DNA of 64,000 nucleotides from the NCBI RefSeq assembly GCF_022539665.2, contig NC_081334.1, positions 2,666,001 through 2,730,000 of the forward strand, written 5' to 3'. Origin of the DNA: Daphnia carinata. Lineage: Eukaryota > Arthropoda > Branchiopoda > Diplostraca > Daphniidae. Shown piece by piece: positions 39,142-47,997 of the stretch. Below the pieces are notes generated by a model. The model made no database searches and had not been told where the DNA came from. It saw nothing but the letters and a program-made list of their open reading frames with translations. A program made the position numbers and the translations under genes. Positions within the stretch are counted from its first letter, which is position 1, and every line of letters begins with the position of its first letter.

Positions 39142-39235
39142 ATGGATAATAGCGCCACAGTGACACCCCCTCACGAAGGAGCCAATCCCGGAATCAACGG
39201 CGGCCAACCGGATCAACCCAAGCCGTCCATACGAC
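39142..39235 (+). CDS. ATP8B: Flippase coding exon 1
   Basis: Encodes [20 protein letters not shown] followed by [11 protein letters not shown], a disordered Pro/Gly-rich start. The exon begins at 39117 after TTACAG, so it has an upstream partner. The frame is open back to 39118 (LNKPIDAT before the Met), which leaves room for an upstream start. The donor C^GTGATT is weak but is the only one that joins the next exon in phase. Confidence 0.7.
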
Positions 39236-40100
39236 GTGATTTAGGCAAAAACATCATTTGTTTTTTTGTGTTTTTTTTTTCCCCTTTTTCTTTTCGTTGT
39301 CCGTGATTGAGAATTTTTGCGTTTTCGTTCCTTTTCCAAACGGCAACAACAACACAACAAAAATATTGTCGTATGCAAAAACAGGTTCGAGATCGCGGAG
39401 CGCAGAGGCGATGGGCACGCCGTCGTCGGACGGCGGTAGCCACGGCAAAAGCCGGCGGATCTTGCCGTCGTTGAGACGCATATCAACAACACCATTGAAG
39501 CCGAGACGTCGGTCTTCGTCCGAATCGTCCGAATCGTCGTGTCCGTCGGCGCCGACGGCTCCCAAACAGCCGGCCAGGCCGAGCCCGTTGAGGAGCGCGG
39601 CCGTGGCCGCAGCGCGCAAAACGCGCCGATTGTTCGGCGCTAAATCCAATGACATTTCACCTGGTATTTTTTTGTTTTGTTTTACGCACGGATTGCCGTT
39701 GCTTGTCCGTCTTCCTGTCCGTCTCATTCGCCCGTCTAAAAACCGCATGTTTTATTTTGAGACGTTCCATGTGCGCACGTGTAGTGGAACGTCGTCGTCA
39801 TTTTCTTTTTCAATGTTGGTACGCACGCAAAAATTGCACAAGCTGTTGCAAAAAAAAAAGTAAAAGACGTTGCGTGTGTGAGTGTGTCTGCAAACGCCCC
39901 CCCCCATTTTACTTGTTGATGGCTTTCAAATTCGATCCCCCCCCCCCCCCCCTTCGTATTTTTTTGTTTGGGGGAGGTTGTTGGACGATACGTTTCTTCT
40001 TAATTAGTTTCCGGCTGCTTGAAAGGCGAGCAAAAGTCAACGTGAGTGTATTAAAGACGCGGGCACTATAGGAGAAAGAACGTAACGTGATTCGTTTGGA

Positions 40101-40137
<37 letters not shown>

Positions 40138-43100
40138 GCACAGCTGTTACGTCTCTCGTTCTCGCCCTTGGATGGCCAAAACCAATCGATGAGAAGAGAT
40201 TCGGCTTTTCTCTCATCAGGCGCTCTCTCTCTATCCATTTTTGCTTTCTCTTATTTGTAGCTATTCAATCTTTAGTAGCGTAATGATCTTTTTTCCTTTT
40301 ACGGATCAATGATATCATCATCCTCCTTTCCCTTTCCAGAGGTAAAAAAAAAAAAAAAGAGAAACATATTTTTGTTTGTAATGATGTCATCCATCAATTT
40401 TTTTTTTTTTGCCCGGAGTTCGTGATTCCCATCGTTCTCGGCCACGGCCGCTCTTTCCCGGTTGTTAGCAAAAAAAAAAAAAAAAAGGTCCTGAAAATCT
40501 TGCGTCATAGTCTCTAAGGAATTTTTATGATTTATTTATTTATATTATTTTCCGGATCTTTTTTTTTTTTCTTTCTATGTTTTGTATTCTCTTCTTCTCC
40601 TATTATCAAAAGCATCCGGGTGCTGTGTGTGTGTGTGTGCGTGTAGTATTGATCCGCCTCCGATTGTAATAACGCCGGCATGGAAGGGGCTGGCTTTTAA
40701 AGTATTACGTGAGGGATTGTTGTAGAAAGGGGAAAGTGGGGAAATCGTCGTGTTTGTACATTCCATTTTTATTTAAAAACAATACCCACGAAAGAAAAAA
40801 AAAAAGGAAAAGATGAATCGAACAATATTTGCATGGCACTAAAAGAGCAACAATTGGAAAAATGGTGAGATGTTTGTGGAATGTTTGTTGATGTTGTAGT
40901 TCTTGTTGCTTTCCATTGTTTCGGTTAGGTTGATTGTAGTTGTTGTTAGTGTGACTTGATTATCTCCTTTGATCATTCAACAAAACTAACATTCGATTTG
41001 CATGATTTTCATAATTGATATAGAAAACGAAAGACGGATACGGGCTAACGACACGGCTTTCAATTCGCAGTTCAACTATTCAGTAAGTGATCTTCATTTG
41101 TTTTGTTTTGTTTTGTTTTGTTTTGTTTTTCGTCTCAAAATTCAATTGTTTTGCCGGGTGGGTTCGTTATCTTTTTAAATGAGGAAGCGCATCGTTTGAA
41201 AAAAGGAAATTACAAAACGAAAATGTTCACATCCGAACTCGTGACGTTGACACGCGTCACGTGTGTTCCAGTTTGCTGACATTTTAAATGGAATGAAATT
41301 AATTCTTTTTTTTCGTCCTCGCTTTGAAAAAAAAAAAAAAAGGATAATTACATCCAGACGTCCAAGTACACGCTGGTGTCGTTTGTGCCAGTCAACCTGA
41401 TCGAGCAGTTCCAGCGGCTGGCCAATTTCTATTTCCTGTGCCTTTTGGTGCTCCAGTTCATCCCGTTCATCTCGTCGCTGACGCCAGTCACCACTGCCGT
41501 GCCTCTCATCGGTGTCCTGCTCCTAACGGCCATCAAAGATGCCTACGATGATTTCGTGAGTTTTAACTTTTTTCCCAATTTCGAACTGGCATATCATGTG
41601 AATATGCCTAATTGTTTTGTTTATGATTTGGAACACGTTCAGCAAAGACATCGGAGCGACTCGCAAGTGAATAATCGAAAGTCGCACGTCTTGCTCAATG
41701 GCAAGTCGGTGGAAGAGCGTTGGCACAAAGTGCAGGTGGGCGACATCATTCGCATGGAAAACGATCAGTTCATCGCGGCTGATCTTCTTCTTTTGACCAC
41801 GTCCGAGCCCAACGGCCTCTGTTATATTGAAACGGCCGAGCTGGACGGGTATGATTTCATTTTTCCCGCCCTTTTTTTTTTTTATTTATTTATTTATTTT
41901 AATTTAAGTACTTTGCTAAACATGAAAAATTGATGATGTTAGGGAGACCAATTTGAAATGCCGCCAGTGCCTGATGGAGACGGCCGAAATGGGCCAGGAC
42001 GAGGCTAGGATCGGCGGTTTCGACGGAGAGATCGTCTGCGAGCCGCCCAATAATCACTTGAACAAGTTTGAGGGCCGGTTGACGTGGAACGGCAAGCAGT
42101 ACTCGCTGGACAATGACAAGATCCTGCTCCGCGGATGCGTTCTGCGCAACACGCAGTGGTGCTACGGCGTCGTCGTCTTCGCCGGACGCGACACGAAGCT
42201 GATGCAGAATTCGGGCAAGACGAAATTCAAACGGACCTCTATTGATCGTCTGCTCAACTTTATCATCCTCGGGGTACGATTTCATTTCCGTCATTGCTCA
42301 TTTGCCTTTTGACATTCAAAATCTAAGCCAACGTTTTTGTTTTTGTTTTTGTTTTCTTAGATTGTTTTCTTTCTGCTGTCGATGTGCCTGTTCTGCACGA
42401 TCGCCTGCGGCGTCTGGGAGACGGTGACGGGCCAGCACTTTCGCTCCTACTTGCCGTGGGATCCGCTGATTCCGGCCGAGCCCAAAGCTGGCTCCACCGT
42501 CATTGCCTTGCTCATCTTCTTCTCGTACGCCATCGTTCTCAACACAGTGGTGCCCATCTCGCTCTACGTCAGCGTCGAAGTCATCCGGCTGGCCCAGTCT
42601 TTCCTCATCAACTGGGACCAGCAAATGTTCTACGAAAAGACGCAAACACCCGCCAAGGCGCGCACGACGACACTCAACGAGGAGCTCGGCCAAATCGAGT
42701 ACATTTTCTCCGACAAGACGGGCACGCTGACGCAAAACATCATGTCATTCAACAAGTGCTCCATTGGCGGATCTTGCTACGGCGACGTCTTTGACGCATC
42801 CAACGGCGAAATCATTGAGCCTAACGAGGTACACCGTCCTCCGTTAATCGTTTTAGTTATTCGAACATCATTTTTTTAACGTGACGTGCTTTCAGAATAC
42901 CAAAACAGTGGACTTCTCTTTTAATCCGCTTCACGAACAAACGTTCAAGTTTTACGATCAGACACTTGTCGATTCGAATCGTGAACAAGATCCCACCTGC
43001 CATGAATTCTTCCGACTTCTGGCACTCTGTCACACCGTCATGCCCGACGAGAAAAATGGTATTTCATTTCTTTCTTTCTTTTCGTTGTGTGTTTCATTCT

Positions 43101-46100
43101 GATTTCATTTGTTTGTTTTTTTCATTTTAAAGGAAAACTGGAATACCAAGCCCAATCGCCGGACGAAGGAGCTTTGGTATCAGCAGCTCGCAATTTTGGT
43201 TTCGTCTTTAAAGCACGCACACCAGATTCTGTCACCATCGAGGTTATCATCATTTCTTAAAGAATGATTCAATCAAATGTGTGTTGTTAATGAAAAAAAA
43301 AAAACATTTTATGACAGGTGATGGGAAAGACGGAAGTCTACGAATTGCTGTGCATTTTGGATTTCAACAACGTCCGTAAACGAATGTCGGTCATCCTTCG
43401 CGGTCCCAATGGCAAAATCCGCCTCTACTGTAAAGGAGCCGACTCGATCGTCTACGACCATCTGCAGTCGGGAAATGACGACATTAAGAACAAAACACAA
43501 GAACATTTAAATGTAAAAAAACAGTTGCTGAGCGATCTTGTTTTTGTTTTCTCTGAAATTACTTTTTCCTTTTATGTTTCTCCAGAAATTTGCTGGTGAA
43601 GGTTTAAGAACGTTATGTTTGGCAATCCGTGACGTGGACGAAGCTTATTTTGAAGACTGGAAGGAACGACATCACGAAGCCTCGGTTTCGATGAAGTCGC
43701 GAGAAGAACGTCTGGACAAACTGTACGAAGAAATCGAACAGAATCTGACACTGTTGGGTGCAACGGCCATTGAAGATAAACTTCAAGATGGGGTCAGTAG
43801 AATTTATTTCAGTTTCCAGAAAAAATGTCTTTTTAAATTTGAATTTTATTTTGTTTAAAGGTGCCACAAACTATTGCTAACCTTGCGATTGCTGGAATTA
43901 AAATTTGGGTGTTGACTGGAGATAAACAAGGTGATTGATTTACACAGTCAGATATTGGGGTGGTATAAATAGAGATTACTTGTGAATCTAGAAACTGCCA
44001 TCAACATTGGATATTCTTGCCAGCTGTTGACCGACGAGATGGTCGATATTTTTATAGTCGACGGCCAGAACGTCGAAGATGTCGAGCTGCAATTAATCAA
44101 ATGTCGAGAATCTCTGCGTGGATATGCCCGCAGTCAAGTCCAAACTGCTCTCAGTGGAATCAGGTACACACACACCTTCGTCCATTTTGCATCTGGATAG
44201 TTCTGCTCATCAATGATTTGGTAAATCATTTAGTGACCGTGGCTATTCGTCCAGCATCGGTGGTGAAATGGAGGACATGGCGTGCGGACCAGAATTGACG
44301 GGAATCGACGAGGACAACAACACGGGTTACGCCTTAGTCATCAACGGCCATTCGTTGGTCTACGCCCTGCAGACCAAGTTGGAAAAACTGTTTCTCGATG
44401 TCGGTACACAATGTAAGGTCATTTGTTGCTGCTTTTCTGCCAAATCCATTTGGAAATGATGACGACACGCTGGTTTTCAATTGTTTTCAGGCAAAGCAGT
44501 GATTTGCTGCAGAGTGACACCACTTCAGAAAGCCATGGTGGTCGATTTGGTGAAAAAATACAAACAAGCCGTCACGCTATCTATCGGTGACGGAGCCAAC
44601 GACGTATCAATGATCAAAACAGCCCACATTGGCGTTGGCATCAGCGGTCAGGAAGGCATGCAGGTAATATTATTCTTCGTTCGAATTTAGTGACGGTCTG
44701 ATTTTTGCAATTGCAATTGTGACTGTCTAGGCCGTCTTGGCGTCAGATTACAGCATTGCCCAATTTCGGTATCTCGAACGTTTGCTGCTCGTCCACGGGC
44801 GTTGGTCCTACCTTCGCATGGCCAAGTTTTTACGCTACTTCTTCTACAAGAACTTTGCCTTCACCCTCTGCCATTTTTGGTTCGCCTTCTTTTGCGGATT
44901 CTCCGCCCAGGTATGTGCATTTGTTTTTTCTTTTGTTTCTATCCTTAAAGAAGTTCAGTTTTTTTTTCTTTTGCGGGGAGGGGGGAGCTCTCGTAAATAG
45001 AAGTCGGGGGTGTGCCAATGGTATCAAACGTTCCAGGGCAACGGTTCCGGAATCTTATTCACATAGAATCTGATCTTCTGAATTCTTTTGTTTGTTTTTG
45101 TTCTTATTTTTGCTTGGGGAAAAGTGTACTTGTCGTTTCGCACGAATTCTCGCAAACCAAAACTAATATGAAAAAAAAACAAAAACAGCACGGCTAAACT
45201 GCACAATTGGAATGGAACCCACTAACCGAATTGGTTTTAAATTTTCACTGAAACAAAAAAAAAACGAAAACAAAAACGTATAAAAACAAATCGATTTCTA
45301 CGCAACAACAACAACAAACAAAAATGTTGTCGATTGAAACGGGGGGACGACGCAGACGGTGTACGAGCCGTTCTTTATCATTTGCTACAACGTGGTCTAC
45401 ACGTCGTTGCCCGTCTTGGCGCTGGGCATCTTCGAACAGGACGTCTGCGATACGCTCTCTACTCGCTACCCGAGACTCTACTCGCCCGGCCTGGGACACA
45501 ATTTCTTCAATCCGCGAAGCTTTGCCTCGGCCGCCTTGCACGGTGTCGCCACATCCGTTTTAGTTTTCTTTGTACCTGTAGGTACGTACGTTTTTCATTT
45601 GCATGCGAAAGCAAAAACACGAAAACACACAAAAAACAAAATCGGAAGAGACCCGGTTTTCATGGTTTTGCGCACGTCAAAAAGCACTTTGACCTCCAAA
45701 ACTGCCTCCTCGAATTTCCCTTCCTCCTCGCCCATTTTGCTTTCGATTCCGTCGGCGGATGTGTCGGATGAAAATTCCCGTTTCAAAAGATAAAAAAAAA
45801 AATGCGGATGGCATGTCAGTTATTAACGGATTGATAGGTGGCAGTAGTAGATAAACCAACCGTCATTGAGTTAGGAAAATGAATTTATTTTTTAAATCTA
45901 TTTTCAAGCATGATTCTTTTTTATTTATTATTTTCGCTTTCGCCTCTTTTTTTTTTCCTGTTCAATATATTATTATTTTTGTCTATCATTCGTTGGGGCT
46001 TCCGGTTGGTTGTTGATCTCCGAGTCGTTAACAGAAGCCAGGGAGCTTATTGTGTCTCGTCTTCCCGATCTACTAGTATTAAATGCTAAACAAATGGCCA

Positions 46101-47997
46101 CGCCCTTCTTCGTGTTTACGATGCTCTCGGGGGACCGTTGTAACGTTTAGATTTTGCTTATTTTTCCTTCTGCTTTTGAGGCCTTGCCCGTCTAATAAAA
46201 ATGTTTTATTTATTGATTCCTGTGCGGGCAAAACAAAACAAAACAAAATAAAAAACAAACAAAACAAATGGCTGGACGTGGATAGACTGTGTTTGATCCA
46301 ATGTTCATCTCGGTGTACAACCTGTTCTACACGTCTCTGCCCGTCCTGGCGTTGGGCATCTTCGACCAAGACGTCAATGACGTCAACAGCCTCAAGTACC
46401 CCAAGCTCTTCACACCCGGCCATCTCAACCTGCTGTTCAACAAGGCGGAATTCTTCAAGAGCGCCATGCACGGATGCATCACGTCCTGCGTCCTCTTCTT
46501 CATTCCCTACGGTGCGTCCTCGCTTGTCCGTTTCCCCGTCTTCCGAACTCCATCCAACGTAACAACACCACAAATCCCCTCAGCGAGATCCCGCTGTCCT
46601 CAAACATTGAAACCGAGCAAGGGACACTTCCCTTTTTTTTTATCCTGTCCAGCAGAAATCTCTTGTACATTGAGCTCTTCCAATCACCTCGTACCCTCTC
46701 TTATCCATTGATCCTCCTTCTCTCTTTCTCTCTTTATTCGAGCACATAAAACAATATCATTTTCTTTCATTTTAATTTTTCAAAAACATTTGATGACGAT
46801 ATTTTTCTATTGTTCTGCGATGTGGATGTGCGCGGTGGAAATGCAGGTGCCTACTTCGACGGTGCCTCGCACCAAGGGCACACAACTTCGGATCATCAGC
46901 TGATTGGCAGCGTCGTGGCCACCATCCTGGTCGTCGTGGTGACGGTGCAAATCGCGCTGGATACGGCCTACTGGACAGTGTTCAATCACATCACCATCTG
47001 GGGCTCGCTCGTCTGGTACTTTGCCCTGCAATATTTTTACAACTTCGTCATCGGCGGATCCTATGTCGGCTCGCTCACCAAGGTACCTCACCATCATTTA
47101 TTTATTTATTTTTTTTTTTTTATCCGTTTCGTGACATTTTCATTTGAAAAACAAAAAACATTTTGTCAGGCGATGGGAGAGGCGACGTTTTGGTTCACGC
47201 TGGTCTTGTCCATCGTCATCGTCATGATTCCCGTCGTTGCGTGGAGATTCTACTTTTTCGACGTTCATCCAACGCTGGCCGACCGCGTCCGTTTCAAGCA
47301 GAGACAGCCTCGCATCCGGTGCGTTCAACATTTATGTTTTTCCATGTTTTAAGTTTCGATTTTTCATTTTGTTTTTGTTTGTTGTACGCAAACATTTTAG
47401 GGCGCACAAATCTCAAGACTTTTTGCGGACGCCTTCGGCTCGTCGCAGTCGACGATCGCTGCGATCCGGCTACGCCTTCGCCCACCAGGAAGGTTTCGGC
47501 AAACTCATCACATCAGGCAAGATTATGCGCAAGACGGGCTTGAATTTCGGGACGAAAGCAAGCAGCAACAATGCGGCAAACAACAACAGTGGAAGCAGCC
47601 ACAGCGTGTCGACAGGTGGCGGCCTGGCCTCACTGGCCGATCACCCTGACGGTAAGTCGCACATGAACTCATCATTTCGTTATCGAATTTGCTTGCTGGC
47701 CAAGTTTATTTTTATTTTTTTATATATATATTTTGAAACAAATAATTGAAAGCGATCGTGTGCGTAGGTCCAGTTTCGGGCATTTTTTACCATCCGATGG
47801 GAGAGAACGATAGAAGTATGCAGCCCAGTACGCGCCAGTCTCACAATGGCAGTAGCGTCCAGCCGCGAGCTTCGTCCGTCGCTTACGCGCGCACGGCCAA
47901 CAATAGTAGCCGGCCACGATTGCAGGATCCCTACGCCATCACCGTAGATCTGGAGTCTGGCGGAGAGCCTGCCTTACCCAATACAATGTCGACGTGA
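39142..47997 (+). CDS. ATP8B: P4-type ATPase, phospholipid flippase of the ATP8B class (alternatively spliced)
   Basis: Moves aminophospholipid-type lipids from the outer to the cytosolic leaflet using ATP; P4 enzymes usually act with a CDC50 partner. Exons: 39142-39235, 39385-39663, 41024-41082, 41343-41555, 41643-41848, 41943-42273, 42361-42828, 42896-43058, 43133-43242, 43318-43512, 43586-43792, 43861-43930, 43992-44163, 44234-44412, 44491-44663, 44731-44910, then 45356-45581 OR 46286-46511, then 46847-47082, 47170-47318, 47401-47651, 47768-47997. With one alternative exon the CDS is 4191 bp (1396 residues). Seen: [16 protein letters not shown] start motif, DGETNLK (actuator domain), PISL in M4 (about 459), DKTGT with phosphorylated Asp about 512, KGAD about 680, TGDK, GDGANDV about 948-954, ten membrane segments, and tail [15 protein letters not shown] typical of ATP8B proteins. 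All junctions GT-AG and in phase. Start ATG in an exon with acceptor at 39116. Confidence 0.95.
39385..39663 (+). CDS. ATP8B: Flippase N-terminal Ser/Arg-rich cassette exon
   Basis: 279 bp (93 codons), phase 1 at both ends, so skipping it keeps the frame. Encodes [60 protein letters not shown] and a basic end [16 protein letters not shown]. Several RRxS/RxxS sites suggest phosphorylation of a cytosolic tail. Acceptor AAACAG, donor CCTG^GTATTT. Not part of the conserved P4 core. Residues about 32-124. Confidence 0.75.
39664..41023. other. Second intron of the flippase gene
   Basis: About 1.4 kb, bounded by CCTG^GTATTT and TATAG^AAAACG, with a 31-base T run at 40106-40136 and C- and A-runs. 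No nested gene seen. Confidence 0.65.
41343..41555 (+). CDS. ATP8B: Flippase exon encoding M1-M2
   Basis: 71 codons, phase 0. Encodes [60 protein letters not shown] and IKDAYDDF, the standard P4 M1-M2 hairpin. The acceptor is odd: a run of 16 A's precedes the AG, with the pyrimidine-rich tract about 20 bases further upstream. Confidence 0.92.
42361..42828 (+). CDS. ATP8B: Flippase exon encoding M3-M4 and the phosphorylation site
   Basis: 156 codons, phase 0. Encodes M3, a luminal loop ([17 protein letters not shown]), M4 with [17 protein letters not shown], and the catalytic stretch [20 protein letters not shown] replaces the PEGL of ion pumps and defines the lipid-transporting P4 family. 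The Asp of DKTGT is the aspartyl-phosphate site. Confidence 0.96.
45356..45581 (+). CDS. ATP8B: Flippase mutually exclusive exon A (M6, M6-M7 loop, M7)
   Basis: 226 bp, acceptor GACGCAG, donor G^GTACGT. Encodes [60 protein letters not shown] and [15 protein letters not shown]. Includes the conserved YN of M6 and ends one base into a Gly codon completed by the exon at 46847. Both P4 hallmarks of this region (YTSLPV and IFxQDV) are intact, so it is not a decayed copy. Confidence 0.93.
46286..46511 (+). CDS. ATP8B: Flippase mutually exclusive exon B (M6, M6-M7 loop, M7)
   Basis: 226 bp, acceptor GGATAG, donor G^GTGCGT. Encodes [60 protein letters not shown] and [15 protein letters not shown]. 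By hand comparison 40 of 75 residues equal exon A: M6 is well conserved, while the M6-M7 loop and M7 differ strongly. Exon B looks closer to the vertebrate ATP8B1 sequence as I remember it (DLLFNYKRFF, LTSMILFFIP). Confidence 0.93.

Follow-up and report, generated by a model that had tools for sequence, protein, structure and literature searches.

A tandem pair of probably mutually exclusive exons that would exchange one membrane segment of an ATP8B-type flippase

The 64-kb window (the whole stretch of DNA that was analysed) contains a P4-ATPase gene on its + strand, for which a spliced model was built by script. In this model, 16 upstream coding exons, with a total length that is a multiple of 3, are joined to one of two homologous exons, here called A and B, and then to two downstream exons. 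The model ends at 47318, with additional tail exons lying beyond, and its least certain parts are the first exons and the proposed ATG at 39142. The features are the following.

39142..44910, + strand: upstream coding exons; 16 exons with AG/GT at each internal junction and an open frame of 3099 nt
44731-44910, + strand: M5 exon, the last of the 16 upstream coding exons
45356..45581, + strand: exon A; end of the M5-M6 loop, M6, cytosolic M6-M7 loop and M7; A-type
45665..45783, + strand: intron stretch 3' of exon A, conserved in two or more related genomes; may control splicing
46286..46511, + strand: exon B; same segment as A; B-type, as seen in other animals
46847-47082 and 47170-47318, + strand: downstream coding exons; M7-M8 loop to M10

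The gene model contains the PISL, DKTGT and DGAND motifs as well as the M5 YKN motif, and its C-terminal 394 residues match PF16212 (PhoLip_ATPase_C) with 280.4 bits when exon A is used and 283.0 bits when exon B is used (cut-off, 28.3). The sequence marks of the ATP8B type, i.e., the first three of these motifs and the P4 C-terminal domain, are thus present with either exon. Among solved structures, both exons were best related to human ATP8B1 (8ox4, 7py4), which, together with other ATP8B proteins, has the same architecture and hallmark motifs as this gene; the solved chains carry one version of the segment, which is nearer to B, with 75.7 bits as against 70.6 bits for A. Named protein matches were mostly phospholipid-transporting ATPase ID or IM, and the Penaeus protein P0006 was 73% identical outside the exon. 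Together, these sequence comparisons support the assignment of the gene as an ATP8B-type flippase. Across the 108-Mb assembly, PF16212 gave 20 exon-level matches, which we grouped into approximately 7 loci, and among the matches listed this gene was the only one with two intact, separate copies of profile positions 58-137. It was also noted that one contig of the assembly (G000 contig C8, 3679449-3692324) carries three groups of P4-ATPase C-terminal matches on one strand within 13 kb (loci L010, L011, L013, L015, L016, L020, L021, and L023), which probably represent a tandem gene cluster.

Exons A and B are adjacent homologous internal exons of 226 bp each, with equal phase and compatible GT-AG sites on both sides (CAG/ACG ... 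TAG/GTACGT for A and TAG/ACT ... ACG/GTGCGT for B). They share 40 of 75 residues and 132 of 226 bases (58% DNA identity), the differences falling on the three codon positions as 33, 24, and 37, with NG86 estimates of 0.49 for dN and 1.25 for dS, and they are separated by 704 nt of other sequence. When exon A was used as a query against the 108-Mb assembly, exon B was retrieved with E = 5.2e-21, and the likeness is therefore not due to chance. The coordinates, lengths, splice sites, phases, residue match, and shared motifs given for this pair in the first-pass annotation were all reproduced.

The same annotation had argued from the reading frame that a transcript can use only one of the two exons, and this held in the spliced model. 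Splices with A alone or B alone gave 1236 open codons each, to 47318, whereas inclusion of both exons led to a stop 8 nt into B (215 nt ahead of the next junction) and omission of both to a stop in the 46847 exon, 54 nt from its start (179 nt ahead of the next junction), so that an open frame was obtained from one exon at a time. Transcripts carrying both exons or neither would be expected targets of nonsense-mediated decay. The two predicted isoforms differ at 35 of the 1236 modelled residues, all within one 75-residue segment.

By alignment to ATP8B1, we assigned exon residues 7-26 to M6, 27-54 to the M6-M7 loop, and 55-75 to M7. Identity between A and B was 3/6 for the first six residues, 16/20 for M6, 12/28 for the M6-M7 loop, and 9/21 for M7. 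When the 10 A rows were compared with the arthropod B rows, fixed differences were found at seven columns (53, 55, 57, 58, 64, 70, and 75), i.e., in the loop end and M7, with none ahead of column 53. In P-type ATPases the M6-M7 loop is cytosolic, and its earlier placement on the luminal side was wrong. For ATP8B1, the available part of PMC9045818 describes that the N-terminal tail of CDC50A touches the TM6-7 and TM8-9 loops, that the CDC50A ectodomain lies over every extracellular loop but TM1-2, and that a cavity lined by TM7, TM8, and TM10 corresponds to the PI4P site of Drs2. The lipid-linked Asn of M6 is present in both exons, as had been proposed, and the corresponding residue of ATP8A2, N905, is crucial for recognizing the substrate according to the accessible text of PMC12424579. 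At least one CDC50 locus was found in the assembly (three exon matches, G000:C1:6675661-6676628). Since the swap falls mostly on the loop and M7 and spares the M6 Asn, and since the search for CDC50 turned up one locus, we prefer a regulatory reading of the swap; as far as sequence can tell, changed regulation appears likelier than a changed choice of lipid or partner.

To look at the occurrence of the exon elsewhere, three protein searches were scored at the exon A segment. The database consisted of open frames clustered at 90% identity, in which broken A copies could not appear and an A isoform may be masked by a B isoform of its cluster. The complete A isoform as the query matched 72 of 134 candidates, and a 394-aa piece matched 10 of 52. 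In all 82 of these longer proteins the segment was nearer to B than to A (for the Armadillidium model, the last copy was scored), and no spliced A-type protein was thus found among the 82 longer matches in this 90%-clustered database. A query of single-exon size matched 30 of 34 candidates, 20 of them B-type and 10 A-type. The A-type ORFs (P0085-P0094) represent nine distinct exon sequences, P0087 and P0088 having an identical exon, and have 50-66 of 75 residues in common with A and 35-42 with B. All ten, coming from an open-frame database, have an open frame, and they retain the YN, QDV, and Pro hallmarks. The residue preceding the exon was Q in all six A-type ORFs that extend upstream, which fits CAG, and the residue following it was G in all ten, which fits G/GT. 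A-type exons were thus seen in ten ORFs of other genomes and B-type exons were widespread, with A beside B seen in this gene only.

We also built a tree of 23 rows and 75 columns, which has a long human branch and from which P0088 (its exon being that of P0087), the first Armadillidium copy, and most of the similar B-type matches were left out. Window A and the nine other A rows fell on one side of a branch with a support of 89/100. A clade of A with the two nearest B rows (window B and P0009) was disfavoured (p-AU 0.0215), and with it a recent local duplication of B. A single clade of all arthropod B gave a p-AU of 0.401, and the point at which A joins among the B rows was not settled by the tree. 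Since the A-type is kept in ten ORFs and groups apart from B, A is very probably not a decaying local copy, in agreement with the first-pass view that neither exon has decayed. P0009, which is 85% identical outside the exon, has B between the same neighbours as here and is a protein of 1275 aa on contigs of at most 4836 bases. Because a gene that extends over 8 kb, like the present one, would not fit on such contigs, P0009 probably derives from a transcript and gives indirect transcript support for the use of B.

Several A-type ORFs run past the exon into intron read as protein. We back-translated these tails and fitted them to the window intron, with 100 shuffles each, noting that degenerate codon positions mask some differences in such fits. 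The P0087 tail fitted 45634-45767 with 3 of 122 aligned bases incompatible (score 83.1 versus a shuffle maximum of 22.9), and the P0088 tail fitted 45665-45783 with 3 of 111 incompatible (98.1 versus 25.3). The P0085 tail was borderline (25.5, matched by 1 of 100 shuffles), and the P0086 and P0093 tails showed no fit to the window intron (8 and 81 of 100 shuffles as high, respectively). The fits cover these five ORFs, the tails of the other five having at most 8 residues. The stretch at 45665-45783 begins with CAAAAAGCACTTTGACCTCCAAA, and the P0087 and P0088 tails read it in different frames. Given that the intron is kept so well while 13 of the 75 residues of exon A are changed in the P0087 and P0088 proteins, the comparison suggests that 45665-45783 is a control element, although there is no neutral yardstick for intron conservation here. 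The conservation also argues for the same gene context for the A exons of P0087 and P0088. For the conserved 17-mer at 45684-45700, no complementary site within 3 mismatches, other than itself, was found in the window.

How an exclusive choice may be enforced was also considered. Steric exclusion was ruled out by the 704 nt between A and B, and U2/U12 incompatibility by the ordinary GT donors of both exons. In this one genome, the best contiguous helices for docking/selector pairing among the three introns did not go beyond dinucleotide shuffles, being equalled in 15, 29, and 67 of 200 shuffles, and for the A acceptor in 26 and 30 of 500. A 12-bp helix between the A acceptor (45334-45345) and 45775-45786 was dropped on this ground (26 of 500 shuffles as good), although on its 3' side it adjoins the conserved intron stretch. 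The acceptors themselves were G-rich at positions -20 to -5, with 8/16 G for A (45336-45351), 7/16 for B (46266-46281), and 7/16 for the next exon (46827-46842), compared to at most 4 G per 16 bases in the other 16 acceptors examined. A random draw would pick the three G-richest of 19 acceptors once in 969, for a pattern that was noticed post hoc. The A acceptor is also poor, with 3/16 pyrimidines. In the simplest model, weak regulated acceptors would act together with the conserved intron stretch, and frame-shifted products would decay.

Taken together, we consider it likely that A and B form a conserved tandem pair of mutually exclusive exons in an ATP8B-type flippase, probably a crustacean one, with isoforms that may differ in regulation. 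Beside the observed anatomy, frame logic, A-type exons elsewhere, and conserved intron stretch, we infer that A is used in mRNA and that the gene probably makes two pump forms. Every transcript would take A or B, and wrong products with both or neither would be removed through the frame and nonsense-mediated decay. Catalytic domains, M4 lipid site, and M6 Asn would be unaffected by the swap, which would mainly alter the cytosolic M6-M7 loop and M7, so that the isoforms might differ in pump regulation via contact with the N-terminal tail of CDC50 or with the phosphoinositide cavity of TM7/TM8/TM10. A narrower version, which we put forward tentatively, is that an old A-type exon provides crustacean ATP8B with a second, splice-selected loop and M7 that retune autoinhibition or phosphoinositide control, with lipid recognition kept, under a conserved element in the intron after A.

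Other readings of the pair were weighed against this one. Exon A could be a poison exon that joins B transcripts and shifts their frame, leading to decay and lower flippase levels, with the A protein unneeded. The early stop within B of the A+B splice, well ahead of the next junction, would suit such a role, as would the conserved intron 3' of A and the lack of any A-type segment among the 82 longer matches. However, a poison exon need not preserve a membrane-protein sequence, and the A-type keeps its residues, hallmarks, and frame in ten ORFs (of an open-frame database), which makes this reading unlikely. Rather less likely still is that the exons change the lipid preference or the CDC50 partner, as first proposed. 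The exon does encode M6, including the Asn of the lipid site, and 3 of the 6 residues at its luminal start differ between A and B, but M6 is nearly the same in both exons with the Asn kept and the fixed differences begin at column 53, which weakens the lipid part, and the single CDC50 locus found, a lower bound, weakens the partner part. Finally, A could be a duplicate that is decaying or unused, or an artefact of the assembly, with B alone in use. The B-type segments of the longer proteins and the pyrimidine-poor A acceptor are compatible with this, but A and B have diverged to 58% DNA identity with other sequence between them, dN lies below dS, and A is intact both here and in the ten ORFs of other genomes, and we regard this reading as very improbable.

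The preferred reading, a mutually exclusive pair, is of a known kind. Dscam, Mhc, and 14-3-3zeta are arthropod clusters of mutually exclusive tandem exons (PMC10790352, in the part available), and the present pair resembles them in having homologous, neighbouring exons of equal phase with one per transcript, here by frame logic. It differs from them in gene family, in having two exons only, in that docking/selector pairing was not found here, and in that use of A is predicted. In the Armadillidium vulgare model P0003, the beginning of this exon occurs twice in succession (residues 554-675), as would be expected had gene prediction fused a tandem pair. The first of the two, with 41 residues, matched A at 22/41 positions and B at 25/41, so that we dropped the idea of an A-like copy; it may be an independent duplicate. 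In Drosophila, we take CG33298 to be a P4-ATPase. It is cited as a gene in which long-range intronic RNA pairing influences splicing (accessible parts of PMC4174434 and PMC10790352); the likeness lies in this effect of intronic pairing, and CG33298 is a possible lead. The dipteran proteins matched had B-type segments only. No P4-ATPase with mutually exclusive exons was found in the literature searched, with supplements, preprints, and related-species annotation outside the search; public annotation of related species may already list both isoforms. A term search of the available part of PMC3228551, on prediction of mutually exclusive exons, found no mention of ATPase or flippase, and the fly paper PMC13423992 concerns, in the part available, PMCA. 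What is new here is the A-type exons in ten ORFs of other genomes and the intron conservation.

The finding carries a warning that gene models may retain the B form only. If there are two isoforms, they offer a natural contrast of 35 residues with which the role of the M6-M7 loop and M7 in a P4-ATPase could be addressed directly, and a lipid pump would join the genes with mutually exclusive exons. If the narrower version of the preferred reading is true, splicing would select the regulation of a flippase and not its substrate.
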